Positions 1,254 to 55,980 of a DNA stretch of 64,000 nt are shown piece by piece. The notes beneath the pieces were generated by a model. That model saw only the letters and a program-made list of their open reading frames with translations, made no database searches and was not told the DNA's origin. The position numbers were made by a program, and so were the translations under genes. Origin of the DNA: Hymenopellis radicata (lineage: Eukaryota; Basidiomycota; Agaricomycetes; Agaricales; Physalacriaceae); assembly GCA_015501595.1 (NCBI GenBank), contig JADNRX010000257.1, forward strand, positions 1 through 64,000. The letters run 5' to 3'. The stretch's first letter is position 1. Every line of letters begins with the position of its first letter.

Positions 1254-1285
1254 CCGCCGAGCAAAGAAGAGGGACTCGTCTCTAA

Positions 1286-2497
1286 TCAGCTCAATTCTGG
1301 CAGGTGGCTCAGTGAAGCGCCTCCTTCCGGTGCGTCTTCATATGGCCTTCCCACAGCTGTCAATGCTCTTGATGGCTCCGGGCGTATCGTTACGGACCCA
1401 GATGAGCTCAAAGCCGTTACGAGAGAGTATTTTGAGCGTCTATATACGCACGATGAGACGGTGGATGTACCAAAGCCATGGCTCTCGACACCATCAGTCA
1501 CTTGTGTTCGAGAGCGTGTCTTGAAGGAAACCATTCAGATGGCCGATGCTTGCTAAATATGTCTGAATTTAGGGCCATGTTGCGCAAAGGAAACCCTCGG
1601 CCAGCTCCAGGTCCAGATGGTTGGGAAAAGTGGTGTCTGAAAGCACTATCGGACGACGCGCTGAGCCTCGTGCTCGACTTACATAACTACGAGGTTTATG
1701 AATGCTCGTTTCCCAGGTGACGTGACGGATATGTGGTTAACGTACTTTCACAAGCGCGGCTTACAAACAGATCTTTCAAACTGGCGTGGAATCATGCTAT
1801 CAAATTTCCTTGCAAACTCTCCTTTGACGTGGCTCAATTACAAGTTGATACCTTATGCAGCTAAGTTTAATCTTATTCCGGATACTCAGGTCGCTACTCA
1901 AAGGGGTGTACAGACACGCGATATCGTGAGCTACCTGTCCCAGGTAAAATGTTACGCAGAACGGAGCCGGACACCCATCTACGCGCTTCAACGAGATCAA
2001 ATGAAAGGGTTTGATTACCTCTCCCCACAGGGCTTTTTACGATGCACTCAGTGCCTATGGGCTTTCCAGACTCGATTGCTGATCTGGATCGAGCAGCGCA
2101 AAGGCAAGTCCGGGCCTTTCCTCGAACAGCGTATGGCACTGCAGGCGCACTTACAGTTCGAGGCCTGACAAAGCAGGGCGGTGCTCTATCCCCATTGAAA
2201 TCGACGCTGACGACGAGTCTTGGACACCGTTATCTTCAGGATCTATCGGAAGCGGAGCCTGGAACACTGGTAATATCATCCATTCATAAACGCGAGTTTG
2301 ATGATCCGCACTTTCAGGCTCACAACTCGTCTCTTCGTGTTGTGATGGCAGAAGCCACAGATGACTCGTATCTCTTCGGTGCGGGACGAAACGCCATCAC
2401 GGCGCTTCAGCGGTTTTGTCTTGAAGCGGAACGATTTCAGTACGCATATGGTTGGCTTTCAACTGGCCGAAGTGCAAGATCTTTGCTTTGGGAGTGA
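1286..2497 (+). pseudogene. LINE reverse transcriptase, multiply frameshifted
   Basis: RT motifs are spread over overlapping frames. A linker reading VTDPDELKAVTREYFERLY lies near 1395-1445. A PAPGPDGWEKW box at about 1600-1630 is the conserved PGPDG motif. DQMKGFDYL near 2000 corresponds to the DxxKAFD catalytic motif A. ATDDSYLF near 2350 takes the place of the FADD/YADD box. At least three frame changes separate them, so no functional polymerase can be made. It is continuous with the endonuclease upstream and RNase H downstream and shows the same level of decay. Confidence 0.7.
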
Positions 2498-2947
2498 AAG
2501 GTGATGTGCCCAAGTCATTGTCTATGCCCTCAGTGACATTGGCGCCAGGTGTCCATCCCTGGACGGTAACACACCATGACGTTCCGGTGGTGAGGAACGA
2601 GCTGGAATTTTTTGCGAACTAAAGTCGATGATATGAAGGCACGGTACGACACGCTGCGTGACTTCATATCTGGTTTTATGTTCCCTCGATTCTCTGTTCG
2701 TACTCCGATAAACCTTGCTACGAAAGGTCGTCGCACAGTCTATTATTCCGCGGGTGTCGCGCGCTTCTAACGCTTCAACCTATCAAGCTGAGTGATGCCT
2801 CGTCGTTGGACAGTCTGATTGCTGAGAAAGTACACGTTGCTTTAGGATTTCCTTTCCGGCCAAGCTCAAAATTACTCTCGCTTCCGACATCGCATCTAGG
2901 TTTGGGATTTCCGTCAGTATACCGTATTAACGCAGGTCTTCTCCTAA

Positions 2948-4741
2948 ATGGTTTTGTCGCGCGACTTGAACCATCATATTCCCGCATACAGACAAATGGC
3001 GGCGTTAACACTCGCCGACTGGCAGTGTTACTATAACGGGTGCATTTATCCACTCGACGAACATGGACTGACACGCTCGTTTACAGGATCGTATGGCCGG
3101 ATCCCATCTACGTGGATTCAAGCACAGTCTCTCTTGAAAACACTCCAGCTGAGTCTCCGCTCCACTGATTCGAGCTCAATTCTCACGGGAGATTTCTCAG
3201 TTTCACACGCGCTAGGCGTCTGCAGGTCAGCGGGCCTGGAGATTCCAAACAATCATGCAGTCCGTGCGCTAGCGACGCGGGGCATCGTGCAGCTACGTGA
3301 CGCCGGCAGATGGGTTATTGGGCCCGAAGCCGCGGCTGTCTTCGATGTTCCTGATATACCGCCCTTGGTGGCTCAAGGATGGACACCGGGAGCACAGCGT
3401 CAATGGCGTCAGGTCTCTGAATGCCTTGGTCAACTTCGGTTGCGCTGGCTGTTCTCCGGCGATCTTGCCCTGTTAGTGCCTCGGACGATACGCCAGCAGT
3501 ACGCCGAGGACTACATACGTGCCCTGCCAATTTGGACTTTTGCTTCGCGGGGACCATCTCTTCTTCCACATGGCAATCGCGTGTGGGCCTCGGACGGCTC
3601 TATGTCTCCCGCATCGGCCATAGTCACTGCTCCGAAGAATGTCACAGCAGCAGTGGCTGGTGCTGCGAACATTGTCGTTCGAGTACCAGGATGGAACAGC
3701 TCGATATTGCACGGTGAGCTGATGGGTGGTGTTATGTCTTTGTTACTGTGCAACCCGGCAGATAGCCACATCCACGCAGACTTGCTATCACTTGTCAACT
3801 TTGTCAGTGATACCCGCTCTGGCGATAAAGCCGATGACCGCCTCCGATACTGTAACACCCGCTCATATTTCCGGTGGATACAAGCGTGTGTGCGACGGCG
3901 CCCATCGACGATGGTACACCACGTCAAGGCACATACAGATGGACGTTCCCTACCGTCACGTTTAAATGCTGAGGCGGACAGGCTGGCATCCTCAGCACAA
4001 CGTTCACTCTCCACACTTCTAGCGGCGCCAGTTCCCTCTTTCCTCATGAATCCGTACACCTTCTATGCTCCACAGCACGGATGGATCGAATCCAACATCC
4101 AACAGTTCGTCGACGAGCTGTTGGTGCGGAAGACAGTCCAAGTGTTGGAGTCGCGGCATCTGCGACTCAGACACGAGCTCTACGATCCTCGCCCGCCTCC
4201 ACAGTACCCGTATGTTCGTGCCACATCGGCATACACAGCGGTGGTCCAGCTATATGCGAGGTGTGGCCAGCTTCCGACGGGCGATCGTTTAGCGTCTCGT
4301 GGTTTGGCCGCACGAAGCCTGTGTCGGTATGGGTGTCGAACAATCGACGACGAGCATCACATCTTCATCGAGTGTCGGAGGTTCCATAAACTTCGCGAGG
4401 AAGCTACGGTGAGCGTATCAAGACTCACAGCGACGAGGATTGATGATACGTTAGGTGTAGGTGTACATGGCGATTTTGGTCCGCTACGAACGGCAGCTGA
4501 GCTGCTGTTCTCGCGCGATGGTTCGGTATGGCCGCTTGGGAGCTCAACATATTACCTGGGCTACCTGCCTCCGCTGGACGCGCTCCTTTCGGCGGTCCGG
4601 TTTGACACGGTCATCGCCCGGGAAAAATTCTTGTCTGGTATAAGTAAAGGGTGGCACTATAGTGGGATAAGGCTGGCTTCAAGGATTTTCGGATTGTATC
4701 AGAAAGAGAGGCGGGATGCGGAGATTAAACGGACGAGATAG
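2948..4741 (+). pseudogene. LINE C-terminal part: RNase H and terminal Cys/His knuckle
   Basis: This is the longest open frame of the element (597 codons). RNase H signatures lie in its middle: a WASDGSM motif (first Asp), HGELMG (Glu), an ADLLSLV stretch (third acidic residue), and LNAEADRLA near the end (last Asp). Around 4320-4375 it carries CRYGC...EHHIFIEC, the CCHC-like knuckle typical of LINE C-termini. The frame is intact, but it is cut off from its RT by upstream frameshifts, so it is a remnant. RNase H would remove the RNA strand during target-primed reverse transcription. Confidence 0.8.
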
Positions 4742-13920: not shown

Positions 13921-14302
13921 GCAGTTCGCGTGATGGTTTCGACGTGCGGGGATATATGGAATGGTGGTCAGGAAAAAGGGACGGTCACTGATCGGAATCG
14001 TCAGAGACTGATTGCCGTAGCCTCTTGCTTTTGTACTGCTCGCTTCCAAGGCTCGTTTTCTACTGCACTCACAGAACACGGAGAAATGCTCCACAGTCCG
14101 CACAGTATGCTCTTTCCACCTGTTTTTCACTCGCTCATCTCAGTGACAATGACAGGTGTCGACTGGATTGCGCCACTTTTCTCAAGTAACAGCACATACT
14201 GATACTTGGTTTCAGTAAGCTTTCGAAAATATTCTAAAAGACGTCCTCCAACTATTTTCAAGGTTACCTGAAGCTCTTTATAGACCCAACAATACGATCC
14301 AA

Positions 14303-15322
14303 ATGTCATTAGTGACAAGTAGTAACCGGATGGTCGAAGTCAAGGTCCTCAAAGCGTTCCTCCCGTTCACCAACTCTGCTTGCATTTTAATCCAGCCACT
14401 TCAGCCTGTACCCGATCTTCCAGACACGCTCGTCTGTAAGCTCGCTGATCGGCGGATTGGACCGCGTACTGTGCCCTGGAGCGTTCAGCATGAGAGACAG
14501 TTCCAGGCGAATCTTCACATGTACATCGAGCGCACTGGCGGACCTCCCGAAGTTAAGCGACATGGTCTGTCGGAAGATGACCCGGAGTGGTTCAACGAGA
14601 TCATCCGCTGGCTATACTACGATGATGCCCTCCGCACCGAGCAGAAGGCGTACGAAGCTCTCACTGAGGCCCAGAAGTTGGGTCTTGTTCCGAAATGCTT
14701 CGGTCGTGTATGCATCCCTATGTCGTCCGGCTCCTCTATCCATCCATCACTAGACGCCATCGACGGTCTGTTGACCGAGTACATTCCCGGTCGTCTTATG
14801 TCCTCCGTTTGCCCAGGAACCGATATATCCATAGAGGAAGCGGAGGATATTTCCCAGAGAATCCTCAATCTGGCGAGGCGTCTCCGCCGCTACGGCGTCT
14901 CGCATAACGACCTCCATTCCGACAACATCATCCTTCGCCACGGGAGCAATGATCCTGTTCTCATCGACTGGGGACGCGCGGGATTTCATGCCCTTTCCGA
15001 GAAAACATTTGCAGCGCGATGGATGAATAACACAATGTGGCAGGACTTCCGTTCGGACGTACGCAAAATCTTAAAACGCTCAGATGGGAACATCTGGCAT
15101 CGCTTTACTACGCCTCTTTCGGATGCGGGCAAATTAGGCTGGTGGAAAGAGCAGTCATGGAGAGATATCAACAAGGACATCAGAGATTTGCCCGAAGAGC
15201 AGTTGGAGATGTTGTATTACGAGGACCCAACCGTGGACCCGGAACGTGGGTTGAGGTGGAGAGTTAAACCAGGCGTGAAAACTACTAGCATGATGTGGGA
15301 TGATCCTGTTCCGCCTTACTAG
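14303..15322 (+). CDS. Protein kinase-like fold protein
   Basis: This single-exon 339-aa protein carries core kinase motifs: a Lys in VCKLADRR (about K46) as candidate ATP lysine, the catalytic loop HNDLHSDN (H201, D203, N208), and DWG at 222-224 as the metal-binding DFG equivalent. An N-terminal beta-rich part and a C-terminal Trp-rich tail complete it. It looks like one of the expanded basidiomycete kinase-like families near FunK1/phosphotransferases. The substrate cannot be told, and a small-molecule phosphotransferase is possible. The start ATG at 14303 is the first in frame, and no introns are needed. A frameshifted inverted copy lies at 22122-23135, and orphan copy C lies just upstream. 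Confidence 0.75.
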   Translation: MSLVTSSNRMVEVKVLKAFLPFTNSACILIQPLQPVPDLPDTLVCKLADRRIGPRTVPWSVQHERQFQANLHMYIERTGGPPEVKRHGLSEDDPEWFNEIIRWLYYDDALRTEQKAYEALTEAQKLGLVPKCFGRVCIPMSSGSSIHPSLDAIDGLLTEYIPGRLMSSVCPGTDISIEEAEDISQRILNLARRLRRYGVSHNDLHSDNIILRHGSNDPVLIDWGRAGFHALSEKTFAARWMNNTMWQDFRSDVRKILKRSDGNIWHRFTTPLSDAGKLGWWKEQSWRDINKDIRDLPEEQLEMLYYEDPTVDPERGLRWRVKPGVKTTSMMWDDPVPPY

Positions 15323-17098
15323 AACCATCATCACCGCGTATATTCCAACCAGAGATCTCGAAATTTATTAGTGTGACCACCTTACTTACTACTTAGATTG
15401 TAGATTTTATAGAGTGAGGCACGAGCTCGAACAAATCGAGGTCTTCGTACGGACATGTGATGCGGTAACTCCTTCCTCTTTCGTTACCGTCATCACGACG
15501 AGTCGCGCGTCGAAGACACTCGCGTTTCGGGCTCGGCTCTTTCACTTTTATTTCCCACCCGCCGCTCCCTGAGAAATGTGTTCAATCATAGAATGAACTC
15601 ATGCAGCTGAGAACTTGCGCGCTCTGCTCTAGCACGGCAAGTCCTAGTGCCAGCTGCGTGGCCCACCCACCCATCGCAGCTGACCACGTCTACAAGGATT
15701 AAGAACCGTTGCTGGGGCCCGAAGGCTTCGCCTTCACCCACACATGAAGCTCATTGTTCCAAGCTCACACTGATGCATAGTGATCTACACATCTACATAG
15801 CATTTAATGCAGTACAAAGAGATCTCAAAATTTGATAGTGCGAACAAAGTATAAATGCTACCTACTGTAATGAACTTCATTGCCCACCAGTGCACGAAAA
15901 TGCTATAGCACCGTGGGTTCCAGATATGAGCAACGATAAGGAGATGTCTACTTTACAAGAACCCTTCCTTCGTTGAACCAAGTTCTCGGTCGGATGATGT
16001 CATGCATCTGTCCTCTTCCCGCCATGACAGGACCCCGACATGCCGCCTAAGAGGTTCGATCCAAAATCGCCTGTTTTCGGCACTTTCTGTCACGAAGTCT
16101 TTGACCAGTTCTGTACGATTTTTCGCCCAGGGCATCCATTTTGGGCCCAAAATGTCCGACCTTTGAAACTGACCTTCCAGCCGACGGACCTTCAAGGCGG
16201 CGCGTACACAGGACCGACAGTACCATTAGGTCGATGTAGACCATGTTCCGAGCGTCGCCTCTGGGGCAGGTCGCGTTTGTGACGAAAGATGTCCGACAAT
16301 CCGGCCGGACGTGTTAACCTGGTGAGGCTTTGTGTACGACTAAATATTCAGACGTCACCTTGATATAGGCCACATATGTACGACAAAATAACGGACCTTC
16401 AGCCCATTTTTCGTCTCAAATGTACGACAAAAAAATCGAACATCTTGGGGGCATGCCGGGGTCCTGCCATGACCGACGACGAGCGCAGCGACGGCAGAGG
16501 CACATCGACGAGCCCGGCGCTCCGCGTCTCTGAGGAACGGACCATGGATCAACGCGTGTCTGGCCCCATGGGACCCACAGACGTGCTGTAAAGCGGATGT
16601 ACACCAACGACCACGACGACCAGGGCAGCGGCAGTGCAAGGCGAGGGCATTCCAGCGTATTGGTCGCTGCAGGATACAATGGCTGGCGAACCCGACGCGC
16701 TTTCTGACCGCAGTGGACGTCTAGATGACCTCTCCTCCATGGCTGGACGACCATATATTCGTCCTGGATGGCGTGACTCGACAAGACAATCGTCTTTTTA
16801 GCTTTTCCAGCGATGGACAGTATCCTCGAACGACGGTTCATATCACAGACGTTTTTTTCTTTGGATACACAGCGTCGAAATGGTGTGTGTGTGTCAACTT
16901 TGTTACGTCGATGTCACTTATCTCTATGCCAGCCTCTGTACCTCCATCGTCCCTACTATCGTCGCCCTCTTCTCTCTCTGGAACCCCTTCCATGCTGTCC
17001 CATCATCTTCTTCCATTTCCCAAGCACGTCTTTTGTCGTCGTACATGTATACTTGTCCAGCGCTACCTGCATGGTCAGCTCCTCGACGATTCGGCTTC
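15323..17098. other. Intergenic stretch without recognisable gene
   Basis: Apart from the second copy of repeat R1 (16455-16770) I see no gene here. Short open stretches lack splice-compatible extensions or motifs. A further ctcttcccgccatgac fragment at about 16013 is shared with the R1 copies. Confidence 0.5.
16455..16770 (+). repeat. Dispersed repeat R1, copy 2
   Basis: Same repeat as at 13661. Here the MTDDERSDGRG frame is uninterrupted for 40 codons (16470-16592) and ends at TAA. Relative to copy 1 there is an insertion of about 60 bases (GACCACGACGACC region, near 16605-16670) before homology resumes at cgaacccgacgcgctttctga. Conservation of the small frame could be chance or a remnant of a coding exon. 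Confidence 0.55.
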
Positions 17099-19650: not shown

Positions 19651-20495
19651 CTCGTCAGTTAGCGAATGCTAACTGGAATCGGGACCGATTTCAGTTACCT
19701 CCAACGAATTTCAGTTACCTCCGACCGCTTTCAGTTAGTGTCTGGCCCGCACTCGCCACTGACTGGAATCGGGATCCCGCCCTCATAGTCGGGCCTTGGT
19801 CTGGATGGTGGGACTCATATCGTCATCAGACACCGGCGGAGGAACTGGTCATTCAATGGTTACGCGCGCGCGTTTCGCCGCAGGGGGACGTGATTGATGC
19901 TATGGAAGAGAGGGAGGTGCATCAAGGATTTCCAGGGATGGTGAGCGTGGGCGTCTGAGAGCAGTCGATCTTGGGACGCGATGAGGGTCTATTTTTGGTA
20001 AGCAGTTTTCCAAACGGAGCATGGGGAACACGTACAGTGCGCCACCTGTCTGCGAACTGGCCGAATCGTTCAAGAATGCCCGATATTGTTTGAGATTGAC
20101 CCACTCCAATCGTTTGGTCTCATCGAAGCAGGCAGCAACATCAGGCCGCAATCCTGAATCCCGTGTGAGTACGGTGGTAGTAGTGGTCCGAGTCACTAAC
20201 AACACGTACCAAGGTATCTCTTGTAACGTCCGATACCATCAGGACTCGCCCGAACAAGGTCTAGTGTCGTCTTCGCGTCGTCGTCCATGGTGGAGGCCAG
20301 GCGGAAGAGAAGCGAAAGGAAAATGAAGCAGGCAGCAACCGTTTGATGCTGACATCCCAAAACGGAAGGGCGGCGGCGCCAGTACCAATTCCAGTTAGTA
20401 GAGAGCGGCGGGATGTGCCACTGCCAATTCCAGTCAGGTAGCTCCGATTTCAGTTAGTCTAATCCAATTCCAGTCATATATATATAACTGACGAG
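19651..20495. mobile_element. Non-autonomous element E7 with CAGTTA/TTCCAGT subterminal array
   Basis: Inverted ends CTCGTCAGTTA (19651) and TAACTGACGAG (ending 20495) bound an 845-bp segment. Both end regions hold repeated TTTCAGTTA, AACTGGAAT and TTCCAGT motifs: at least six in 19655-19765 and six in 20375-20485. The interior has no coding signal I can support. The ends resemble hAT-like subterminal architecture, but no matching 8-bp target duplication was found, so classification is tentative. Confidence 0.6.
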
Positions 20496-21283
20496 AGTAT
20501 AGTTGTATATACTCATCGCGCAGTGATGAACTTGCATCTAGACTGGTGTCGCCTTATCAGCGTTTATTCGCTCAATATCATCCGCGTCGTCTTGTTAGCG
20601 CTCGCGAACACTGGCTGCTACACTAAGAAGGAGTGGTAGTGCGGCGGGATAACGTGTGGTCTATGATGGATGGGATCTCGGTATATCGTTCGACTTCGCT
20701 CATCGCGCGTTGGTCTTATCGTTGCGGTTCCCCTGGAGGCACATTCCTTCACCCAGTTGGCCACCGGAAGAATTCTCAGCATTCTTGGATTCCGAACGGC
20801 GCTGAAAGCGGATGCTTGCCTCCCAAAGTCATCCTGGTCATGCACCGTTCTGCGCTTCGCCACTATCTTCCCTCCTCCTTGGTGGCGGTGACAGCTCGAG
20901 GGCGATGGGCTCCATGCCAAGTCTCCCCCCCAACTTTCTGAAAGTCCAAAACACTTTCCATGCGATGGCCAGCAATTCATCATTCTGTCAGGTTGCCCTC
21001 TGATACGCGCGTGCTGTTGTTGTGGACCCTTCTCGTCTCTTTTATCCACGGGGAAGGAAGCTCCCGCCATCGAGAACGATTGGCGCAGTGTCGTCAGCAT
21101 CGTGTTGACCACTCAGCCCTCTCGCTGTCCAACTACTGGGTGACCAGTGCACGCGGGGATGATTGGACAGCGATCCCCGACCTGCTGGCATGGAACGATG
21201 AAAGCAGCGGGCTTATGGACACGTTTTCACCGGCTACAATCGGAATTGGAAAATGCTTTGCTCGTATAGACCGCCTGGCTACT

Positions 21284-21700: not shown

Positions 21701-22121
21701 ATACCATTACACGAGCTACCATTCCTCTCTTTCTGGTGAAGACGAGGATGACACAGGGGAGGATTGCTCGAATGTGTCTTTGTATGCGGGCGGTACAATG
21801 AAGATCTGAGAGTATTAGCTGGCAGGCAGTTCAGGCAGGGTAGGTGATTTGATCATCGCCGCACTGGCTTAAATTGAGTACACCCCCTGCTGTGAGGTTT
21901 CAGTGACCGGCCGGATATTTTTTATGACGGGACTCATGTGCCCATCGGACGGGACTCTCTTGTATGCAGGAATTTTGTCGCGCCACGATCATGGTTTGGA
22001 GGTTGGACGTTGCGTTATGCCATAATACCTCTTGCAAGTGCAGAAGTTCTACATTCCCATCACAATTAATTCTTGCTAATAAATTCAAGACCCTCTAGTT
22101 GAAATATACTCGATGGCGGTT

Positions 22122-23135
22122 CTAGTACGGCGGCACAGTGTCATCCCAGTCCATGCTAGTAGTTTTCACGCCTGGTTTGACTCTCCACCTCAGCCCACGT
22201 TCCGCGTCAACGGTTGGGTCCTCATAATAGAACATCTCCAACTGCTCTTTGGGCAACTTTCTGATGCAGATGTTGATATCCCTCCATGACCACTCTTCCC
22301 TTCCACCAGCATAGCTTGCCCCGCATCCGAAAGAGGCGTAGTAAAGCGATGCCAGATGTTCCCATCTGAGTGTCTTAAGACTTTGCGTATATCCGAATAG
22401 AAGTCCTGTCTCATTGCGATATGACTCCATCGTGCGCAAATGTTTTTCTGGAAAGGGCACTGAATTCCGCGCGCCCCCAGTCGATGAGAACCGGATCATT
22501 GCTTCCGTGGCGAAGGATGATGTTGTCGGAATGGAGGTCGTTATGTGAGACGCCGTAGCGGCGGATGCGCCTCGCCAGATTAAGGATTCTCTGGAAATAT
22601 CCTCCGCTTCCTCTATGGATATATCGGTTCCTGGACAAAAGGACGACATAAGACGACCGGGGATGTACTCCATCAGCAGCCCGTCGATGGCGTCTAGTGC
22701 TGGATGGATGAGGAGCCGACGACATAGCGATATGTACAGGGCCGAAGCATTTCGGAACGAGACCCAACTTCTGAGCTTCCGTGAAAGCTTTCGTACGCCT
22801 CCTGCTCGGTGCGGAGGGCATCATCGTAGTATAGCCAGCGGCTGAGCTCGCTGAACCACTCGGCTCGTCCTTCCCTCGAACCATATTCCCAGTACGGGAG
22901 GTCCGCCAGTGCGCTAGATGTACATGGAAGATTCATCTGGAACTGCTCGCGTCGACGTTCCAGAGCCATACGGACGACTCTCCGATCCGACGGTCAGCGA
23001 GCTTACAGACGAGCCGTGTCTGGAAGATCGGGTACAGGACGAAGTGGCTGGATTAAAATGCAAGCAGAGTTGGGTGAACGGGAGGAACGCTTTCAGGACC
23101 TTTACTTCGAGGCATTTATTTCTTGGCAGCCACAT
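22122..23135 (-). pseudogene. Inverted, frameshifted copy of the kinase-like gene
   Basis: It is closely similar to the 14303-15322 gene over its whole length, in opposite orientation about 7 kb away. The same catalytic words are present (VSHNDLHSDN, PVLIDWGRA, and the C-terminal RWRVKPGVKTTSM) but they fall in three different frames. At least three frameshifts are visible: near the start around 23050, near 22700-22800 and near 22590. It also lacks a good start context. It is a duplicated pseudogene with no sign that it is expressed. Confidence 0.8.
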
Positions 23136-23267
23136 ATGAAGGATACGATTGGGCTCATAAAAGACTTCAGGCGATCTTGAGTAGCGCAGTTAGCTAGATT
23201 CTACGTCTTGTTAGATGCTTACTGAACCACTGGCTACGTGCTACAGCTTGCGAGAAGTGGCGAACAT

Positions 23268-24713
23268 CAGGAAAAACTGTAAATTCTACATACGTCTACG
23301 TAGGTCTACATAGCCCAGGTAGGCCAGGTACAGAGGTACCCCTATACGTAGCCCTAGCGTAGACATCACCAAGCTGTACGTATACCTCCTGTAGACCTAC
23401 GTAGACTACACCGCAAATACAATATACCTGCAGCCAGACCACCTCCGGTGGTTCCGTCAAATATGAGGAATATCAGAAAAGAATCAGGCAGGAAGAGGAG
23501 GAAAACACAATATATTGGCACATAAATGAAGACATGTACACGACAGGATAGCTAATGGTAAATAGGGAGAGGGAAAGTAGGTAGGACAGCTCGCGATGAA
23601 GTACGTCGTGCAGACTTGGAACATCACACTGCCCTGCATATGGCGGGGTCAGTGACATGGCACTACGAAGCTGAGGGAGAGCGATTCGCCAGTGGCGCCG
23701 CCAAGGTCGTCGGGCCCCATTCCTGTTTGGTCGTTGTTGGCGCCTTGGTTACGGTATGCTCCTCGCTGGTTGTGTCTCCCCTCGTGGGTTGGGGCCTCGT
23801 TCGTCGCAATTAGGGCCTCGTTCTACATTCGTCGCAGATAGAGCCCCGTTCGTCGCAGATCGGTCCTCGCTGGTCGCAGTTGGGTCCTCGCTGGTCGCAG
23901 TAGGGGGTCCTCATTAGTCGCAGTCGGGAGCCTCATTAGTCGCAGTCGGGAGCCTCGTTGGTCGTGTGTCGTTCGTGTCCCACTCCTCGTTGGTCGTGTC
24001 TCATTCCTCGTTGGTCGTGTCTCGCTCCTCGTTGGTCATGTCTTGCTCCTCGTCGCTCGCGCTTCCTTGTTCAAACGCGTTCACGTTTTGTCGGTCGTGT
24101 AGCTCTGCTAATCCTGTGCCGTTGTCGGTCATGCAGCTCGAGTACATTGTTCTAGGCTGTCAACGAAGACGCCTCGGCCCGGTTGTTTGAATCGCGTCCA
24201 GAAGCACAGCGAGGTGACAGAGACAAGCATGGCATGGGGAAAGGAGGAATGGGCGACTGGGCGGAGTTCAGAAAATAAATTTGAGTCTTGCCGCGGATGA
24301 CGTGTTGCGCACGGACCATTTGATCGACTGGACTTGGCAAGATTTCTGCCACTTAGGTTTCCGGATCCACGACTTGACGATATCGACTCGAATGCTTAAA
24401 ATCCACGATGGACAGTTAATTTCTTCTTCATTGCAATATGCCTCGACAGTGCACATGAAGCCTCTCATTAATGCTCCAAAAATATTTTCGCCATGGCTGC
24501 TGCCGACCACCGTACACTTCACCAGCAACTACGTAGATCTATGTAGTGCTCACCAAGTACATAGATCTACGTAGTGCTCACCAAGCTGTACATAGATCTA
24601 CGTAGTGCTCACCAAGCTGTACGTAGATCTACGTAGGTCTATGTAGACACGTCCCTTCTTACGTACCCTACGTAGACAGGCCCCCGATCTATGTAGAATT
24701 TCAGATTTCCCTG
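23268..24713. mobile_element. Non-autonomous element E2 with CTACGTAG subterminal palindromes
   Basis: Inverted ends: CAGGAAAAACTGTAAATTCT from the left and CAGGGAAATCTGAAATTCT read inward from the right. Inside each end is a cluster of ctacgta(g)/gtagatctacgtag palindromes: about 23285-23410 on the left and 24530-24700 on the right, where 'agtgctcaccaagctgtac' repeats three times. The interior holds a minisatellite of about 20-25-bp TCGTTGGTCG-type units (23820-24050). The adjacent 8-mers GCGAACAT and ATGAATGT match at four positions and differ only by transitions, so a decayed target duplication is possible but unproven. Confidence 0.65.
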
Positions 24714-25280
24714 ATGAATGTTACTAAGCGACATTCGTTTCCGGCACTGAAATGTACTGAAAGTCAGTGCGGTTCAAAGGATCGTGCGCAAGCATACGTT
24801 AGCGAGCATGTTTTCTTGTGGCGCGTGAGCGTAGCATAGGAGGTGCCAGAACTGAGGAAAAAGCAGGGTATGATACGACGGCAAGATGCTCCGGCAAATT
24901 CCGGGAGTCGATTTGTCCCACGGGCCTCGCCGATGTGACCTACACCCCACCATTGCACTTATGGCTTCTGCATTTCTACTGATATCTTCTCAGAGATACT
25001 TCCAACATTTTCTGTGTGCGCACCTCCTTTTCGTTTCCCGTCTGCAGTCCAAACCTGCTGATGTAACACATTTCCTCTTGACCGCGCCATGATACACGCT
25101 AGACGCTTAAAGCGTCCTTGAGAGCTCCTTCCTCGTTCTCTGATACCCCTCGCGACTAAGACTTGGAGACGGAATCATCTCGTTCATCCTAGACGTGCTT
25201 GTGACGAAAAGAGAACAACGACGCGCGCGATCACTTGAAGGGCCATGTTGTCAATGCAGCCTCATCAAAGCCCCGGACAC

Positions 25281-26585: not shown

Positions 26586-29500
26586 TCACTCCTTAAGCTG
26601 TAAGAAGACCTTCAGTCGATCCCTAAGACTGTCCTCCTCTCTCCGTGCACCATCCTGCAAGTCCTCCAGCTCCTTTACTCGCCTCTTCAACGCGTCGCCC
26701 TCCTCCTTCAACCTCCTGTTCTCTTCCATCAAGCCCCGCTCCCGGACTTCCCAACCGTCCTTCGCGGCATGCAGCTTCTCAATCTCCCTCTCCTTCCTCT
26801 CCAAGTCGCGCTCCTTTCTATCCAGCTCACGTTCCAACCGATCCAGCATCCGCGATTCGGCCATACTCGCAATGGGCGACATGTAGCGCTCGCTGAACAA
26901 AGACGGCTGCCTTTCTTGAGCGGTCGATTGTCCCGACGACGGACGAGAATGCCATTGCGGGGGATCAGGTATACGGAACGACGAGTCGTCCATGTCCATT
27001 GCTTGCGAATGTGGGCTGGCCACTGTCGAGCCAGAGGACGGCGGGACGACAGGCTGAGTTGGCGGAGGACCAGACATCGAGATGCTTGACGCTGCCTGAC
27101 TCGACGGAGGAAGTGACTGATGCTTCGTTCGTTGGGGTGAGGGGGTCGGCAATCGATACTGCGGGAATTCTTCTCGAGGAGACGATGATTCAGTACGCGG
27201 AGCAGAAGCCGTTGCTTGTGTGCTCGTATAAGGAGTCTGATCCTTGGGTGTAGCCACCTGGGAAGTAGTCGCATTTGGAACGGCATTCGAGCTCGCCATG
27301 GAGAGAAAGGGCGTGGAAGTGAACACGGCGCCCTGGTTGATATCATTCTCCAGCTCAGCCAAATCCACTGCCACCTCCTTTCCCTTCTCGCCCTGCTTCA
27401 CAGGTGACTTCGGCGGGAGGCCCCCACTTGGGAGCCTCTTCCTTGGATCCATGGGGAGCGCCACAAGCGGTTCCTTCCCTGCCGAAGCCGTCCTGGTCAT
27501 CCGCCGTTCGCTAGACGGACTACTAGTCACGTGTGGCTGGACAGCCTGGGGACGCCAGCCATAGTTGCTACGCCTAGCCATGGTCTTTAATCGTTGGGGC
27601 GGTGGCGGTGGCGGCGGCGCTTCATCGTCCTCAGATTCAGATGGTGATGGCGTCAACTCCTCGTCGTCCTCATCCGCTTCCTCGTCCTCATCTGCTGCAG
27701 TACTTACGTTCCTTTTTCGAGGTCCAGGACACGGCCGATGTGAGAGTTTGCACCGCCGACACTTCATTGTCCTATCGGAGCCCTTTATCGGATAATGGCA
27801 TGACATTCCCCTTGGAGCACAGTTTGGGCACTGCACGTAGGTTTAGCCAAGCGCTCCGCACCTGCGAATAGTAACATACCTTTTCCTCCCTCTCCGTAGG
27901 AATCAAGTCCCATGTTTTGATATTGACCCGCGATATCAGGGTCCCTACCAAAGGCGCGTGGTAGTCAATCGACAACGCCACCATCTCGCTCCAATCATTC
28001 GCGCTGACTACCGCCTTTGCTTGCGCTTCTTCCTGCTCCGACATTTTAGGCACGAGATCACGCAGAGCAGTATACCAAGCCGTTTTCTGGGACTCCTCGA
28101 CCGGGGGAGTGTGGTAAAGATCCGTAAACTGATCATGGGAAGGTAAGAAGGCAGATCAAGATGAGCAGAGACCAAGGGGAAAAACTTACACGATTAAGCA
28201 GGTTGTTGTTGTCAACCGAGCTGAGTACCTGAGACGATTGATGTGTGGAGGAGGGCTCTGGGAGTGCAGAATGCGCCCGAGAGGTAGGCCCAGTCGTCTC
28301 CGTAGTAGGCAGCCACCCACTCGGGAGCGGTAAGGCTTGAACTGGCGTCTCCTTGACCGGCGACTGAGACTTAACCTTCGTAGCAGGCTTCACACTCGAT
28401 TCCCAACATCCATCTTCCTGCTTTGCAAGATAACAACTTCTGCATGGTTTCTTCTCTTTCTGCCCCAGAGCAATATACTCGCACGTTGTCTTCCGTTTCG
28501 TGCATTCATCGCACTAAAAATAGTCTCGATAAACGGAACACACATACGAAGGGAGGGAGCATACCGCCTTGAGCGCAACTGCCGGGACCAAATCCCAGTC
28601 GTAAACACTCCGCTTCCCATAAATGACGGTCGAGTTCAACTTGACGCTCTTCCGTCCTGGTAGCCCTAGATGCACCATCTGGACCCAATGCCCGCGAGTC
28701 ACTGCGTCCTTGATCTTCTTCTGTGCTTGTGCTTCGAGTTTCGCGGCCCAGTCCCGCAATTCTCCAATCCATTCGCTATCGGGAAGCCTTTGAACTTTCG
28801 TTTTGTCGTAATAGACGGCGAGGAACTGGAAAGACGATTAGGGGGACTGGATGGAAACGCAAGGAGGGAAGACGAGCACATTTTCTACAGACATATCCTG
28901 TGGCGGTCGGGGCTCGTCGCTAGGCGAACACCTCTTCCCCAGCATCACACACCACCTGCACTTTACTGGGCGTCCTACACCAACATTATACCGACGTCGA
29001 GTTTGACACTCCACTTCCTTTTCGACACAGTTGTGACACTAAAGAGCAAAACAAAATCAGCATGTCGTGCATATGAAAGATACACTGCAATGACGTACAG
29101 CAGTGTTCATCTTTATGGGAAACATATCCCAATCCGTTACATAGACTCGGTTGTTATCGAGTTTTGCTTCTGGGATACTCTCCTTGATACCGGCAAACAC
29201 AAGGTCAGTCCAGTGCTCGGGAGTTATGACATCTTGTAGCGTGTTCAGCGTCGCATCGTCCATGTCCCTGAGCATATTTCGTAAATCGGAAATCCATTTG
29301 GGATTGTTCAGGCGAGCTTTCGTGTCTTTGTAGAACGCTACGACCTAGGCGGAATCAGTTTCTATAACGAAGACGCGACGAGTACATACATCGGCGGCGC
29401 CTGCAGGTACTTCCACATCTGTATTCATGTGCTGTCGAACCCCGTCAAACTGGAAATCCGACTCGACGCCAGCCTGGCGCATCGACCTCCGCTCTGGGTG

Positions 29501-30949
29501 CGGACGCTTGAGCTCGCAAGCTCGTCGGGTAAATATGCACGCCCGGCATAGCAGTACATTCGCGTTCGTTAACAGGCAAGAAATTTTACGCTTGACGCAG
29601 TGAGGGCACTGTTTCAATATGGGGTGAGTACAGGAAGACATGGATTGAAAGGGTAAAACGGAAATCGACGAACTGGAGTAGGAGAGGGAACTGGAACGAG
29701 ATCCCAGTCGACGATTGGCGTGGCGCCGTAGAGTTTTCCATCGATGAACGGATAGGGCCCGTTGGTACTGAGTGGGAGTGTCTGGTAAACAATCTTTGCC
29801 CACACATCGGGTCCGATTTGTTCGCGTGCTGATGCTTGTTGTTTGATGTTCATAACAAGTAAAAGCTGCGTGAGACCCTTCACCCATGCAGTCTCGTCGG
29901 CCAATCTTTTTTCAACATTATTGAATAGGGAGAGAACCTCTTGAAGAGGCAATAGAGCTACAACCTGAAAAAGAGAAGTTTAAGCGAAAGTGGAAGACGG
30001 AAGAAATATCGCTACTGACGTCGTCTAGGGTGACGTCTCTCCTCTCCGTTGAGGACTGGGTCTTGCTGGTCTCGATGCGCTTAGACGGATGGGAGGGACT
30101 ATCGTCATCGGCTCGTTTTCGTTTCCCTAGCGTCGAAACACACTGCTGTCCTGTGATGAGGCATTCCCGACAGCTGGCCGCCACCGCATGCGCAATTTCG
30201 CAAGGCAAGTGATGTGCTCTACACCTGTCGCACTGCAGGATCCGGATTGAGATATGGCGCACATGATGCGAAGATAACTTACGGGATCTGCCATGGGAGT
30301 TGGGAAAAGATCCCATTCAAAAATGAGGGCATGCCCAACTGTCTCCCCGATGAGCTTACGGCCGTCCACGGCCCGAATGCCTGGAAAGACCAGCTCGCTC
30401 CAGATTTCCGGGCGCGATTGTGTACGCGTTTGAACCATCTCATTAGGCGTCATCAAGGACACTATATGCCGCAGGTCAGCGACCCACTGGCGCCGGTTAC
30501 TCTTGCACTTCGTGGATTTAAATTCGGAATCAAACTGAATGGAAATTCAGGATTTCAGTATGTACAGCGCAGCGCAATGTGAAGTCATACTCACCCAAGT
30601 AATACGATCGACGTGCTGGGCCGTGAGCTCTGACCAAACCTGCTCCCCGACATGGGTACGCGCGAGTTTTTGGTTCTCAGGTTCAAGTTTGTTCAGTAGT
30701 CCGCGCAGCTTGGTCAGCCATGTAAGCTTCTGGTCTGCCTGTGTCGGCGTCTCCGAAAACACGTCTTTGAACTGTCGTTTATGCAATGTTAGCGCGATTA
30801 TAAGAATTGTACGGATTGCTGCCAAATACCGTGTCGTAGATGCTCGCGTCCTTCTCGGCATACATTTGCGTCATAATATCGCGTTTCCTAAGGGTAGCCA
30901 CGGGGACGGTGCGCGGCGTGGATTCGTTGGGAGGCGCGCTTCCTGACAT
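26586..30949 (-). CDS. Modular protein with five tandem Zn2Cys6-like clusters (12 exons)
   Basis: Exons (minus): 30949-30830, 30771-30595, 30534-30283, 30232-30020, 29964-29674, 29608-29390, 29344-29099, 29038-28889, 28825-28565, 28513-28190, 28128-27880, 27830-26586. All 12 lengths divide by three and all 11 introns (45-65 nt) are phase 0, giving 1248 aa. A helical exon with a W(D/E)xxV...(D/E/T)WD(L/M)xP core is followed by an exon starting at the first Cys of C-x2-C-x6-C-x9-15-C-x2-C-x6-8-C. The pair occurs five times (clusters at residues 184, 352, 507, 644, 835), preceded by an unpaired helical exon (41-99). The last exon adds a Ser/Pro-rich stretch and a coiled coil (about residues 1130-1230). 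The spacing fits fungal Zn2Cys6 clusters; a nucleic-acid-binding role is inferred. Five separate paralogues are less likely, since no stop or start falls between modules. Confidence 0.85.
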
Positions 30950-31286: not shown

Positions 31287-31439
31287 TACTGTCCTATTTC
31301 GACCGTAAGTTCACGTCACAGGTCACAAGGCCTCTGAATTTCCTTATCGGACACCGGAAAACGCCTCCGATCACTTATCAGGCGTGGGAAGGTCAAAAAA
31401 TTCAAAATTTTGTGAACTTACGGTCGAAATACTACAGTA
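31287..31439. mobile_element. TA-type MITE, family 2 (153 bp)
   Basis: Inverted repeats of 28 bp with two mismatches: TACTGTCCTATTTCGACC on the left, and TACTGTAGTATTTCGACC read from the right, continuing GTAAGTTCAC on both sides. TA is the likely target duplication. The ends resemble those of the 13191 and 45964 elements (TACTGTAG..TTTCGACCGTA), so they may use the same transposase. It lies upstream of the modular zinc gene. Confidence 0.8.
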
Positions 31440-48965: not shown

Positions 48966-49486
48966 TGTCAAGAACAGTGACCACGTGAGCACAAGACCGC
49001 TCGGGCCGCGACTAGAGGAGCGGGAGAATAGAGATGCGATAAGAATGACAGATGATAAAGCGTAGAGGACGCTGTGCTAGCTCGACGTAGTACAGAGGGG
49101 ACTGTGTAGTACGGAGACAAAGGAGGACAGAGTGGGGAACTATCTACAAGGGCTGCGTATATGTATATAGAGTCTGTGGCTGTACGAACAATGGGAAGAC
49201 CTAGGATGGAACAATAGACAGTGGGAATACCAATCAGATCATCTGGAGTCATGAGGTGGTCACATGACTTAGCAGTGGATAGATTTTGGCCCATGGGCCA
49301 AAATCCAGACGACTCACTAACCGGCATCTCGGCACTTCCGGACCGGGACCCGGACCGCTTGACACATGACGATGTTAGAGCATGATAACACTGGAGTGTG
49401 ATAATGGAGTGGCCCGGAGACTCTAGCGCGCCCTTATTAGTGAAAAAGGAAGGGGCGCTAGGTCACGAGGAAGGCGATTCGTGACA
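48966..49486 (-). repeat. Gypsy 3' LTR
   Basis: 521 bp. About the first 215 bases (48966-49182) and the last 45 match the other LTR at roughly 97%. The central part (about 49183-49440) is unrelated to the equivalent part of the other LTR and holds an inverted repeat around ttttggcccatgggccaaaa (49271-49290). Confidence 0.85.
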
Positions 49487-52400
49487 ATACCCCCTCTTTA
49501 GGCTGTGCTTGCGCCTGGAGCACAGGAGTAGCACGCCAAATATCCCCCATGGTGATGCCGAAGAGAGCACGTGTACGAGGAGCGGGGGCGCGATAGGCGG
49601 TCGGGTTGTTTCGGTGGAATTCATAAATCTGCTCCTTCGCGTGTGCGGAGAAGTTGGAGGCCGGCTCCCAGGTGTTCTTGGAGTCAGGATAACCAAGCCA
49701 TTTGACTTTGTAGCTGGTCCCTCGTCCATTTCGTGGTTTGCGGGAGGCAAGAATGGCTTCAACGTCGAACTTCTCTTTGCCACCCTCGAGGTCGGGGAGT
49801 TCAGATGGGAGGGGAGGCCCGTGGGCATCGGTCTCGACCCAGGGGATAAGAAGGGAGGCGTGGAATACGTTGTGAATCTGCCATTTATTCGGCAGTTTGA
49901 GGCGGAAGTTTACTGTTCCGAGGACTTCAGTGATTTCGAATGGCCCATAGCGTTTATTCGACAACTTAGCTTTCGGCCTCGTTGTAGCGAGGTTTTTTCC
50001 ATCCAGCAACACCTTGTCTCCAACCTTGAACGTCGGATGTTCCAGCAGGTAATTGCCGTGCTGCGTCTTCATAACCTCCGCTGCGCTCTTCAAGCTCGCC
50101 TCTACCTCTTCTCGTAATTCCTTCAACGTCTCTAGGCGGGACTCAAGCGTCGGGAGATGTGAGTCAGTGCGCAGCGGCGGGAATAGTCTTGGAAGGAACC
50201 CATGCAGGAGTTCAAATGGAGATTTCCCTGTAGCGGAGTGAACGCGAACGTTATGGGAGAATTCGGCGAAAGGAAGGTGCTTAACCCAGTCATCCTGGCG
50301 ATAATTGCAGAATATGCGCAGGTATTGTTCCAACTCTTGGTTGTACCGCTCGGTTTCCCCATCCGTCTCTGGATGGTAGGCGGTACTGAGGGCTGAGATG
50401 ATACCGAGGCGTTTATGGATTCCTTGCATGACCTGGCTGGCGAACTGAGGACCTCGGTCGGTGATCATCTTGTCCCAGAGTCCGTATCGTCGGTAGGTGT
50501 GATTGAGAAGAAGGTCGATAGTGCCGTCGGCGTCAATGGTATCTCGGCATGGAGTGACGACAACGCCCTTGGTAGATCGATCAACGACACAGTGGATAGC
50601 ATTGTAGCCGTCACATTCAGGGAGTCCGACAATAAAGTCGCTGGTAATCGTACCAAAGGGACGAGTGGGGATTTCGTTGGGGACGAGGGGAACATGGGGT
50701 GGATGATTATTGACCTTGGTGACCTGACAAGTGGGACAGCCTCGCACGTAGTCGCGAATAAAAACAGACATGCCTGGCCACCAGAACTCGCGACTCACGA
50801 GTTCATAGGTCTTGTAGCGTCCTGGATGTCCGGCGACTATTGAGTCATGGTACATCTTGACGACATCCCGGCGAAGAGCGGCATCCTTAGGAACGTAAAC
50901 CTTTCCTCGAAAGAGTACTAGGCCCTCTTCGTAGTTCCATTCCTGTAGGTTTTTGACCAGCGAACGAGGCCCATTGTTGAGAATAACGTCTAACGCACTG
51001 AGCACTTCCTTGTCCCTTGATGAACACTCGCGAATCCGCCTCCGCAACTCATTGTCTCCAATGGACGACACTGCACTAGGGCGGACAGCGCGAATGCGGA
51101 AGAATGTGGGGTCGAGCAGTATGCGATCTGCATTATCGTCTTCGACCCCCTCTTTATGGTCTGGGCGGCGAGAAAGGGGATCGCTGTGGTTCAGGGTTCC
51201 TCGTTTGTGAATCAGTTCAAAGTCAAAACGTGTAAGGAATAACGCCCATCGGGCTTGACGGCGACTCAGCTTCTGGGACTGTGTAAAGTACTCGAGGTTC
51301 TTGTGGTCGGTGATGACCTCAACCTTATGACGAGCACCCTCAAGGTAGTGTCGCCAATCCTCCAGCGCTCGGATAATCGCAAGAAGCTCCTTATCGTGGA
51401 TATCGTAGTTGCGCTGCGTCTCGTTGAGCGACTTGGACAGGAACGCGCAAGGGTGCCACTGCTCGTCGTCTCCTTGTTGGTAAAGGGTGGCACCAGTCGC
51501 GAAGTCAGACGCGTCTGCTTCCACACGATAGGGTTTATCAGGGTCGGGCATAATTAGAACGGGAGCAGAGGTGAACGCATCTTTGAGGGCCTGAAAGGCC
51601 GTTTGCGACGAGGGATTCCAGTCCCACGTCTGATCCTTCTTGGTAAGATCAAAGAGCGGTCGAGCAATCTTGGAGAAGTCCTTGATGAAACGTCGATAGA
51701 AGTTACCGAACCCTAGGAATGCTTGTACGTCTTTGACTCGTCTTGGGGTCGGCCACTGAGAGACGCCCGACACTTTAACGGGATCCATGCGGAGGGCGTT
51801 GTGAGAGATGATAAGCCCCAAGAACTCGACGGACTCAGCTTCAAAGACGCACTTCTCTGGTTTCGCATAGAGGTCATGCTCCTGGAGTCGTTTTTAAGAA
51901 CTTCCGTACGATGCGCCGATGTTCTTCCAACGTCTCGGTAAAGATCAAGATGTCATCCATTATAGACGACGACGACTTTTCCGGAGTCGATGAGATCCTT
52001 GAGAATGCTGTTCATCATAGCCTGAAAGGTCGCTGGAGAGTTCATGAGTCCGAAGAACATGACGGTTGGCTCGAAGAGTCCTGGTTGGTCTTGAAGGCTC
52101 CCTTCCACTCGTCTCCTTCCTTCATACGCACATTGTTATAACCCCAACGTAGGTCGATCTTGGAGAAGATACGCGCGCCTTTGAGTTTGTCGATAAGCTC
52201 TGGGATGAGCGGAAGGGGATACTCATTCTTGACAGTGCCTTTATTGAGTTCTCGATAATCCTGTACGGGGCGCAGTGATCCGTCCTTTTTCTTAACAAAG
52301 AAGAAAGGACTCGCCATAGATGACTTCGAAGGTTGGATATACCCCTTCTTGAGGTTCTCGTCGAGGAACGAGTCCAGCTGCTGCTGCTCATCGGGTGATA

Positions 52401-53671: not shown

Positions 53672-55980
53672 CTAAAAATCCAAATGCGCAACAAAATCTT
53701 TCAAATAATTGGCCGCCTCCGCCTTCTCTTCTCCCTGGAGCCCTCTCATGCGGTTAAACGCATCGCTCAGTTCCTTGATCGTGTCGCGAATTTCGCCGGG
53801 TTGGGCCGTCGATATGGATGCAACTGGGGTATCAGCAGCAGCTACGTCAGTGCTGCGGATGGATCGCCAGCTGATTGGGAGGTGGAGTTGGGTCTTGGAT
53901 CGCGGACGGGGCAGTCGCGAGAGATGTGCCCAGGTCGACGGCATTTAAAGCAGGCGCCCTGGCGGCGAAGACGTTCTCTTTCCATTGGGGTCAGTCTCGT
54001 AAGTCTATCAGAGCTGGAATTTGCACCTGAGGAACGCCGTTGCGCGTCAACATCCATAGGAACACCCATATCCTGGGCTGGTGCGCTGTTGGAGCGCGAG
54101 GACTGGGTGTTGCGCGAAGGATAGTACCGAGTGGACGACTCGGCCCTCAAAGCGGCACGGGAGTTCTCCAGGTTGACAACTCGAGTCTTCCTCGTAGAGC
54201 ATGCCACAAGTTTCGGCCAGCGCAGGTAACTCGCAGGTAACCTGCGACTCGCGACTTGCGACCCGGGTTCGCGCAAGTCGCAGGTTTGAGGTTGGAGCAT
54301 TCTGCAAGTACTTGCGCAGGTTCCGGTAGTCAGTTAAGATATAATATTATGCATATAAACTGTGTTATACATATGAATATGATCTAATAGAGCTGCAATA
54401 GGCTATAGAGATCATGTTTGCATTAGTTTGACCTCAGTTGGAGGTGATATGAGTGGGTTATGGCTCAAAACTCGTCAAAAACTCGCAAACTCGCGAGTTT
54501 TAGACCTGCGACTCGCGAGTTTGAGACAAGTCGCAAGTTCGGACTTCAGATATGCAAACTCGCGCAAACTCGACCCGCCGGACCCGGGTTTAGACTCGTG
54601 GCATGCTCTATCTTCCACTCTGCAAGGGTAGTGGGCTGGGGGTGTTGATTGGTGATGATGGTGCGAAGTTCGTGACGAATGCCCTGTTTAAAGAAGTGGA
54701 TGAGGGCGGCGTCTTCGTACTTGGACTTCATCGCCAGGGTCTCGAAACGGGTCATAAACACGTCAATGCACGCAAAGTCTCCTCGTTGACGAAGAGAGTC
54801 GAGGTCATTGCGAGCAGCGGTGGTGGGGTCAAGAGCACCAAAGGCATTGTTGAACTGGGTGATGCAGTTAGCGATCGTACTCCAGACCTTCGTACCAGTG
54901 AACGTGGTGAGCTGCTCTTCGTCGTAGGCTTCTATTCCATTCGAGGCCCACTCGCCTGCAGTGGTCTCTCGTTCGAAGCAAGTGAAGAAGAAGGAGACTT
55001 TGTCAGCCTCCGTGGTGTAGTTGGCAGTGTTGAGACGGAGGAAATTGTTGAGCTCTTGGATGAAGAGGCGCGACTGGCCGCGGTCGCCATTGAAGGGCTT
55101 GGGTTTGTTACCGCGATCTGAGCGAGACATTGGTCGAGGGATGACAGCGATAGCAGCGGGTGGTGGTGACGGCGATGGAGATGAGGGCGGTGATGGAGAC
55201 GGTGGAGGAGATCGGGTAGTGCGATCAGGAGATTCTGGGTTCTCGTTATCTAAGGGGTTTTCGTCGTCTTCGTCGTCGTCAAATGGTGTATGGACGACGG
55301 GGGGTTCAGGTGCAAGGGGTAATGATGAGGTTACAATGGGAGTTGTGATGCGAGAGAGAGCAGGGGATCGCCCTATGTGATGTCCAGATGCTGCAAGGGG
55401 AGCTAGGGCAGTGGCTAATTGCTGTGTAAGGGCAGACTCAGCTTGGGTATCCTGCTCTTCGTCGTCACTAGGTGGATCGGGAAGATGATGGAGTTCGATG
55501 AAATAAGACTTTTCTGAGTTCGCTCTGTAGTACCACCCTACTCGTTCGTCGGGATTGGTCGAGGTGATGGAATCTGATCTCTCGATTGCCAACACCCTTG
55601 ATATCGAAATAGCGTAGGTTGTTAGTGCCGATAATAGAGGTGGGGAGAGGTCTTGGATCTGTGAGATCAGCGGCAGTGACGTACTGCGGGGCTGAGAAAG
55701 ACGTGGTGATGAAGGGGGTTTATGCAGAGGTGTATTTGGCGGGGACGAAGGTAGGAGGTGGTCGACGGTATGGGTGGGAACGTTGATCACGTTGATCTCG
55801 GCGCAGGTACTGCCGATATTGTGCAACTATGGGGAGGTGCAAGCAGAAGGCGGCGTGGTTATCTAGGATTCTCTCACCAGGAGATGCCTTCTTCAAGGTA
55901 AGCTTGGTAGTTCGGGGACGACGTGGGCAATCGGGGAGATGATCGTAGTCGGCAGTGCAAGAGTCCTCGGTGCAGGACAT
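53672..55980 (-). pseudogene. Gypsy Gag, frameshifted and split by a miniature element
   Basis: Likely start ATG 55980-55978 (MSCTEDSCTADYD). The frame changes between about 55826 and 55720 and then runs to 54611: an acidic Pro/Ser-rich stretch, then a capsid-type domain (KPKPFNGDRGQSRLFIQEL, FFFTCFERETTAGEWA) ending at TLAEWK. The hAT-like element at 54194-54610 follows. Gag resumes with TRVVNLENS and the knuckle CFKCRRPGHISRDC (C-x2-C-x4-H-x4-C) near 53930. Without the insertion the two parts join in frame at the usual Gag 'LAEW' helix. Confidence 0.85.
54194..54610. mobile_element. hAT-like miniature element E6 (417 bp) inside gypsy gag
   Basis: Inverted ends TAGAGCATGCCACAAGT and TAGAGCATGCCACGAGT differ at one base. 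Flanking 8-mers TCTTCCTC (54186-54193) and TCTTCCAC (54611-54618) differ at one base and look like the target duplication. Subterminal motifs ACTCGCGAG, GCGACTTGCG and CTCGCAAACTCGCGAG crowd both end regions. The centre is A/T-rich and non-coding. The ends and motif alphabet match element E5 at 61818, so both are probably one family. Confidence 0.85.

Follow-up and report, generated by a model that had tools for sequence, protein, structure and literature searches.

In a 64,000-nt stretch of the Hymenopellis radicata genome (contig JADNRX010000257.1, positions 1 to 64,000; hereafter the window), we analyzed a minus-strand gene at 30949..26586 whose predicted protein of 1251 residues carries five copies of a composite module, each made of a helical exon and an exon with a six-cysteine cluster. 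We read this protein as a candidate multivalent nuclear scaffold on chromatin and not as a sequence-specific activator of the Gal4 type, and we give this reading a probability of about 0.47. At the level of sequence comparison, we could demonstrate the structure of the gene, the homology of its helical units, the existence of one-module and four-module paralogues with common borders, and a pair of PHD fingers ahead of the module in the paralogue termed C963.

The gene was rebuilt from ATG to stop as a single open frame of 12 exons, with lengths in order of 120, 177, 252, 213, 291, 219, 246, 159, 261, 324, 249 and 1245 nt, all multiples of three (12/12). The introns are of the GT-AG type, measure 45-65 nt each (608 nt summed), and 11/11 are in phase 0, an outcome with a chance of 0.0005 on the assumption that one-half of introns are in phase 0. 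Both counts agree with the original prediction, which had been made from the sequence alone. A short N-terminus (exon 1) and a truncated helical unit (exon 2) are followed by five helical/zinc pairs (exons 3-12); the predicted alternation of helical and zinc exons holds from exon 3 onward, and the orphan half-module placed at residues 41-99 is present as exon 2. Basic KRKR-type motifs are present in the protein. Within exon 12, an acidic tract starts at residue 884 and a charged tail occupies approximately residues 1160-1244; judged by eye and by coiled-coil Pfam models that stayed below their cut-offs, this tail appears coil-like. The exon borders were set manually according to the homology between modules, and they are backed by fragments from a relative (borders 5/6, 8/9 and 9/10) and by the borders of paralogues. 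A 17-exon path from unconstrained splice scoring, which breaks homologous units, was rejected because its crude score rewards extra introns. A bacterial promoter and terminator scan was uninformative for a fungal gene, and PADLOC found no family for the exon 12 reading frame.

In all five zinc exons, the codon that follows the acceptor AG is that of the first Cys (residues 184, 352, 507, 647 and 838). This rule had been predicted, and the first three positions were correct, while the last two had been given as 644 and 835. The predicted spacing likewise fits 5/5 clusters, which read C-x2-C-x6-C-x(9,9,15,12,12)-C-x2-C-x(6,6,6,8,6)-C for clusters 1-5, with all 30 cluster Cys present; the 15-residue spacer of cluster 3 exceeds the usual length in Zn2Cys6 domains. 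The gene region contains the six-Cys pattern five times, each time after AG, and the pattern is found nowhere else in the six frames of the 64 kb; none of 500 dinucleotide-preserving shuffles of the gene region contained it. Pairwise identity between the zinc exons is 23-34%. When the clusters were scanned singly with Pfam Zn_clus (PF00172), clusters 1-4 gave 19.3, 13.2, 16.3 and 16.8 bits and cluster 5 gave no match, so that none of the five reached the curated cut-off of 21 bits. Zn_clus was also absent from the match list of the Pfam scan with the full-length protein, and Fungal_trans was not listed there at E <= 5, in a search whose HMMER filters drop most matches above 0.1. Fungal_trans is not found in every Gal4-type factor.

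The helical exons are 14-34% identical to one another. Leave-one-out profiling recovered all five full helical exons at 37-53 bits, while shuffled exons (2000 per test) never exceeded 12 bits, and because these scores far exceed those of shuffled exons, we take the helical exons of the gene to be homologous despite their low identity. The unit has approximately 85 residues and ends in a W-D-x-x-P motif, and four of its columns (W, L, W, W) are invariant across the six copies of the window. AlphaFold2 models of exons 3 and 9 are mostly helical, with predicted local distance difference test (pLDDT) values of 78.0 and 74.7, and fold searches with these two models returned nothing significant. For the helical part, neither Pfam nor the PDB sequences gave a significant match. 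PDB sequence searches gave a best E of 0.59 with the module and 0.61 with the zinc profile, neither of them significant, and an NCBIfam scan of residues 1-878 named no family.

A search of the organism's own assembly (75.5 Mb, 1405 contigs) with residues 1-878 gave 15 matches at E <= 1, eight of which are the gene itself and seven of which lie elsewhere. Copy number varies: one module in C963 and in C774/C849, four in C488 (partly frame-broken) and five in the window gene. With a helical profile built from the window gene only, C963 scored 52 bits, C488 module 3 46 bits, C774/C849 41 bits and C488 modules 1 and 2 27 and 22 bits, the best shuffled sequence reaching 9.8. Applied to 68 genome loci, the same profile reached at least 39 bits on every locus of the four family genes and no more than 10.0 elsewhere, with 10.0 bits for C72, at most 5.9 for 25 of the 44 Zn_clus places in the genome, and no score for C1307. 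In the family alignment of 12 rows, in which the alleles C774/C849 are counted as two and two C488 rows are pieces, W-D is found in 12/12 rows and an Arg directly after the fourth Cys (Cys4-Arg) in 11/11 rows covering the position.

The paralogues differ in their state of preservation. C774 and C849 are allelic-looking copies of a single-module gene (95-97% in aligned DNA), with 2 residues differing in 85 helical codons and 7 in 188 aligned zinc-exon codons; the ratios of nonsynonymous to synonymous divergence (dN/dS) are 0.010/0.019 in the helical part and 0.019/0.048 in the zinc exon, dN being below dS in both on few changes. Judged by eye, the start of the C774/C849 translation may still hold the last part of an intron. 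C488 has four modules and then, by eye, a coil-like tail, and a single open frame of 490 codons runs from its module 1 to its third helical unit. Its reading frame appears to shift twice, once in zinc cluster 3 and once in helical unit 4, which may reflect assembly error or decay. The intron before the zinc cluster of C488 module 1 is 45 nt long and open in frame, so that unspliced RNA would stay readable there. Two further loci are broken copies: C1307:2107-2468 is an 82% DNA copy of window positions 30534-30888 (the gene start) with introns included and stops in the matched frame, and by this comparison it is a partial duplicate of the window gene, while C72 (3553-3768 and around) is an internally shortened copy of C488. 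At C2:111153-111590, several dense Cys clusters stand in tandem without a helical module, in a different architecture.

The C963 splice model has both module borders as well, and that of the zinc exon is also found in C774/C849 and in C488 module 1. The proposal of serial duplication of a phase-0 exon pair thus gains from recurring borders and from copy numbers of one, four and five, whereas the order of the duplications was not recovered: in the module tree, branch support was 16-65 everywhere but at the C774/C849 pair (98), and the window modules did not group together. From this tree, the duplications appear old. Moreover, the intron in front of the cluster is missing from C488 modules 2-4, and the exon-pair layout is thus not shared by all relatives. 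A possible half-unit ahead of the C963 module was seen by eye; its profile match was not significant (E 1.9), and we do not claim a half-module shared with C963. Unequal exchange, first suggested as the source of the orphan half-module, is at present a conjecture.

We then compared the loops between Cys2 and Cys3 at four positions that we take from Gal4 to be the canonical basic ones. The controls were other six-Cys clusters of the same genome, 14 scored of 15 distinct (L040, with a 7-residue loop, was left out). The mean number of basic positions was 1.0 in 8 family clusters and 3.07 in the 14 controls (Mann-Whitney p 0.0014), and by position the family and control counts were 1/8 vs 12/14 at +1, 2/8 vs 11/14 at +4 and 1/8 vs 12/14 at +6. 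C488 modules 1 and 2 have 0/4 canonical basic residues, and the loop of window cluster 3 is acidic. An Arg directly after Cys4 was present in 8/8 scored family clusters and in 1/14 other clusters of the genome (Fisher p 3e-5). The scoring left out C774/C849 and C488 module 4, which both have Arg after Cys4 and whose loops of 8 and 4 residues, not 6, deviate from the spacing, as well as C488 module 3, where the cluster is interrupted by a frame change. Taken together, the clusters resemble Zn2Cys6 domains in spacing, and most of them lack the canonical basic loop residues. The Zn2Cys6 identity originally assigned to them is therefore kept for the spacing, while the sub-cut-off scores, the mostly non-basic loops and the two off-spacing paralogue clusters speak against the full assignment.

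The paralogue C963 has one complete module, and its splice model is free of stops from the PHD pair through the module to a coil-like tail. Pfam PHD matched the model at E 2.6e-8, and its N-terminal 147 residues matched double PHD fingers in the PDB (DPF2 2e-14, DPF3 5e-13, KAT6A 8e-13). Since the open frame of the PHD exon continues into the linker ahead of the module and about 300 bp separate the two, the PHD pair and the module are likely to belong to one gene.

Further evidence came from fragments of other proteins. With a profile built from eight helical exons, 389 candidates yielded three proteins at E <= 0.01 (P0001, P0002 and P0003), of which P0002 and P0003 are pieces of the same gene in a relative and P0001 corresponds to the C963 gene. 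Between the relative and the window gene, identical residues number 84/97, 20/22 and 76/87 in exons (180/206 in total) and 4/22, 9/18 and 8/14 in the translated adjoining introns (21/54 in total, gapped columns excluded), a contrast that is a crude measure because the relative is known from translations alone. P0001 compares with C963 in a similar way (77/85 in the exon, 9/21 in the intron). Identity thus falls at the proposed exon borders, and borders 5/6, 8/9 and 9/10 are supported by these alignments. With the zinc-exon profile, none of 247 candidates matched at E <= 0.01, and for this reason the zinc part of the relative was recovered only for the final stretch of cluster 3, including its last Cys. 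The full protein had no match at E <= 0.001 among 6909 candidates, and a scan of viral contigs with P0002 found no relative.

On these grounds, we propose that the window gene would belong to a small gene family, probably agaricomycete in distribution, whose core is a composite module of a helical exon, a phase-0 intron and a six-Cys exon opening on its first Cys. The ancestor was probably a gene like C963, with one module and a coil-like C-terminal tail, and old in-gene duplications of the phase-0-bounded exon pair would have given four modules in C488 and five in the window gene. Each cluster would hold two zinc ions and pack on its helical part, forming a unit for protein or nucleic-acid docking. 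The charged tails of the window gene, C488 and C963, assessed by eye, may form coiled coils that dimerise the protein, and the result would be a nuclear multivalent scaffold on chromatin with approximately ten docking units per dimer. A wider claim, that the composite domain (W-D-x-x-P unit plus six-Cys cluster with Cys4-Arg) is previously undescribed and defines a mushroom chromatin-protein family which began beside a double PHD finger and multiplied into polyvalent scaffolds bridging several histone, protein or nucleic-acid partners, is put forward tentatively, with roughly one chance in three of being right.

Several observations weigh against the scaffold reading. Loop position +3 is basic in 4/8 family clusters and 8/14 controls (p 1.0, no difference), the controls were drawn from a Zn_clus search and are thus biased towards basic loops, and two of the four positions still have Lys/Arg in clusters 2 and 4, so that some modules may contact DNA. 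The PHD link is found in one paralogue only, the window gene having no PHD match in the Pfam scan; the joins of C963 come from a splice model anchored on the expected segments, which includes two very short, probably mistaken exons. The fourth helical unit of C488 is weak (9.5 bits, E 0.049), and the window gene lies in repeat-rich DNA without an allelic match and could be an accessory or little-expressed gene. The loop observations would suit a true sequence-specific transcription factor, in which five Gal4-type Zn2Cys6 domains read an array of half-sites and the C-terminal tail dimerises the protein. The six-Cys spacing, the weak Zn_clus matches of clusters 1-4, the KRK that clusters 2 and 4 have in their loops and the control-like +3 position all point that way, but this is unlikely given that all five clusters fall short of the Pfam cut-off (cluster 5 without any match), that the scan contained no Fungal_trans, and that the loops are mostly non-basic, acidic in cluster 3 and 0/4 in C488 modules 1 and 2.

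The variable loop charge and the charged coil-like tail, together with the structural look of the invariant W-D and Cys4-Arg positions, could also be explained if helical unit and cluster together formed a fold that is purely structural, or that docks proteins or RNA, and served to assemble oligomers in a role that has nothing to do with chromatin. A nuclear site is indicated instead by the PHD pair next to the C963 module and by the basic KRKR-type motifs, and we hold this explanation to be improbable too. A further possibility is that duplication within the gene left a product that is decaying or not expressed, in a region rich in transposons that may exist on a single haplotype. This is suggested by the repeats on both sides, the transposon-like element near its 5' end, the lack of an allelic match over the gene, the broken copies of the window gene at C1307 and of C488 at C72, and the apparent frame changes in C488. 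With 12/12 exons open and the 30 cluster Cys intact, and with the relative retaining the exons at 180/206 against 21/54 in the translated introns, such decay is quite improbable. The modules could finally belong to several adjoining single-module genes. Exons lying 45-65 nt apart, phase-0 introns and a spliced frame without a stop argue for one gene, as does C488, where successive modules likewise stand ahead of one coil-like tail and share a 490-codon open frame from module 1 to the third helical unit, and we regard separate genes as very improbable indeed. The multivalent scaffold on chromatin is accordingly the reading that we prefer.

Table 1 Features of the module gene and dispersed repeats near it in the window (positions are those of the window)
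Feature	Residues	Positions	Strand	Evidence
Exon 1, N-terminus	1-40	30830..30949	-	rebuilt gene model
Exon 2, truncated helical unit (orphan half-module)	41-99	30595..30771	-	gene model, helical alignment
Exon 3, helical unit of module 1	100-183	30283..30534	-	leave-one-out 48.5 bits; AlphaFold2 pLDDT 78.0
Exon 4, predicted zinc cluster 1 and basic KRKR tail	184-254	30020..30232	-	Pfam Zn_clus 19.3 bits
Exon 5, helical unit of module 2	255-351	29674..29964	-	leave-one-out 37.2 bits; relative P0003 84/97 identical
Exon 6, predicted zinc cluster 2 (KRK kept in loop)	352-424	29390..29608	-	Zn_clus 13.2 bits
Exon 7, helical unit of module 3	425-506	29099..29344	-	leave-one-out 53.0 bits
Exon 8, predicted zinc cluster 3 (acidic loop, 15-residue middle spacer)	507-559	28880..29038	-	Zn_clus 16.3 bits; tail including Cys6 20/22 in P0002
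Exon 9, helical unit of module 4	560-646	28565..28825	-	leave-one-out 46.4 bits; P0002 76/87 identical; AlphaFold2 pLDDT 74.7
Exon 10, predicted zinc cluster 4 (KRK in loop) and Ser/Pro-rich linker	647-754	28190..28513	-	Zn_clus 16.8 bits
Exon 11, helical unit of module 5	755-837	27880..28128	-	leave-one-out 40.3 bits
Exon 12, predicted zinc cluster 5, then acidic tract, Pro/Ser-rich region, charged tail	838-1251 + stop	26586..27830	-	cluster 5 without Zn_clus match
Dispersed repeat like a miniature inverted-repeat transposable element (MITE), 28-nt inverted ends (93%), about 340 bp upstream of the ATG, outside the gene		31287..31439	.	DNA search
Repeat of about 1.45 kb, dispersed over many contigs in complete or incomplete copies (71-97%)		23263-24718		

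The surroundings of the gene are rich in repeats (Table 1), and the MITE-like element occurs in at least 33 other places at 95-99% identity, counted among 40 candidates that were scored. In a DNA search of the assembly with the gene and 6 kb on either side, no contig ran along with them. The gene may therefore be hemizygous; another possibility is that the assembly lacks the second haplotype. Near-identical matches were limited to the far left edge (20000-20511; C929 100%, C1127 96%) and represent either a repeat or the other haplotype. Elsewhere in the window, positions 22076-23110 and 14334-15371 form an inverted duplication (86% identical), and a reading frame at 14219-15319 (+) matches the APH phosphotransferase family. 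Frames of a Ty3-type retroelement with RNase H, integrase and chromodomain lie at 49461-51893 (-) and 54549-55826 (-), with a weak gag match further along, and weak Exo_endo_phos and zf-RVT matches at 1-4738 (+), both below their cut-offs, suggest an element without long terminal repeats (non-LTR). The genome as a whole gave 6 class II peroxidase extension matches and 166 KDZ transposase matches, in keeping with the known occurrence of both in Agaricomycetes.

Gal4-type factors usually carry one Zn2Cys6 cluster per protein, near the N-terminus, which is treated as the DNA-binding domain. The window gene shares with these fungal factors the spacing C-x2-C-x6-C-x(n)-C-x2-C-x6-8-C and differs from them in having five clusters, each behind its own helical domain, with sub-cut-off scores, a mostly non-basic loop, Cys4-Arg in every scored cluster and no Fungal_trans. 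The likeness to double PHD finger (DPF) readers such as DPF2/ubi-d4, DPF3 and KAT6A is confined to the paralogue C963, where a DPF-like PHD pair stands on the same splice model, while the window gene has no PHD match; to our knowledge, DPF2 and KAT6A lack the helical/six-Cys module. Tandem C2H2 arrays also have serial zinc units in one protein, joined by short linkers, whereas here six-Cys clusters are spaced by helical units of about 85 residues and each unit is an exon pair. Dual-specificity fungal transcription factors (Shelest 2017, PMC5415576) combine different types of DNA-binding domain, for example C2H2 with a Zn cluster; they likewise have more than one domain of a DNA-binding type, but here a single composite module is repeated. 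No multi-cluster family of this layout was found in the portions of the open literature covered, including parts of PMC5415576, PMC3998117, PMC10141177 and PMC8396895, which is not proof of absence. Together with the Pfam, NCBIfam and PDB sequence searches, in which no such family was named, this accords with the earlier impression that none had been described.

What is new here is the composite, repeated setting of a Zn2Cys6-like cluster, the six-Cys cluster type itself being known. A single module is small enough for expression, a zinc test and structure solution. If the proposed history is true, the gene would provide a clean fungal case of phase-0 exon-pair duplication, and the family would represent a second use of the fungal zinc-cluster scaffold, in which the cluster has a helical partner, has mostly lost the signature of DNA contact, is repeated one to five times and, in one member, stands beside a histone reader.

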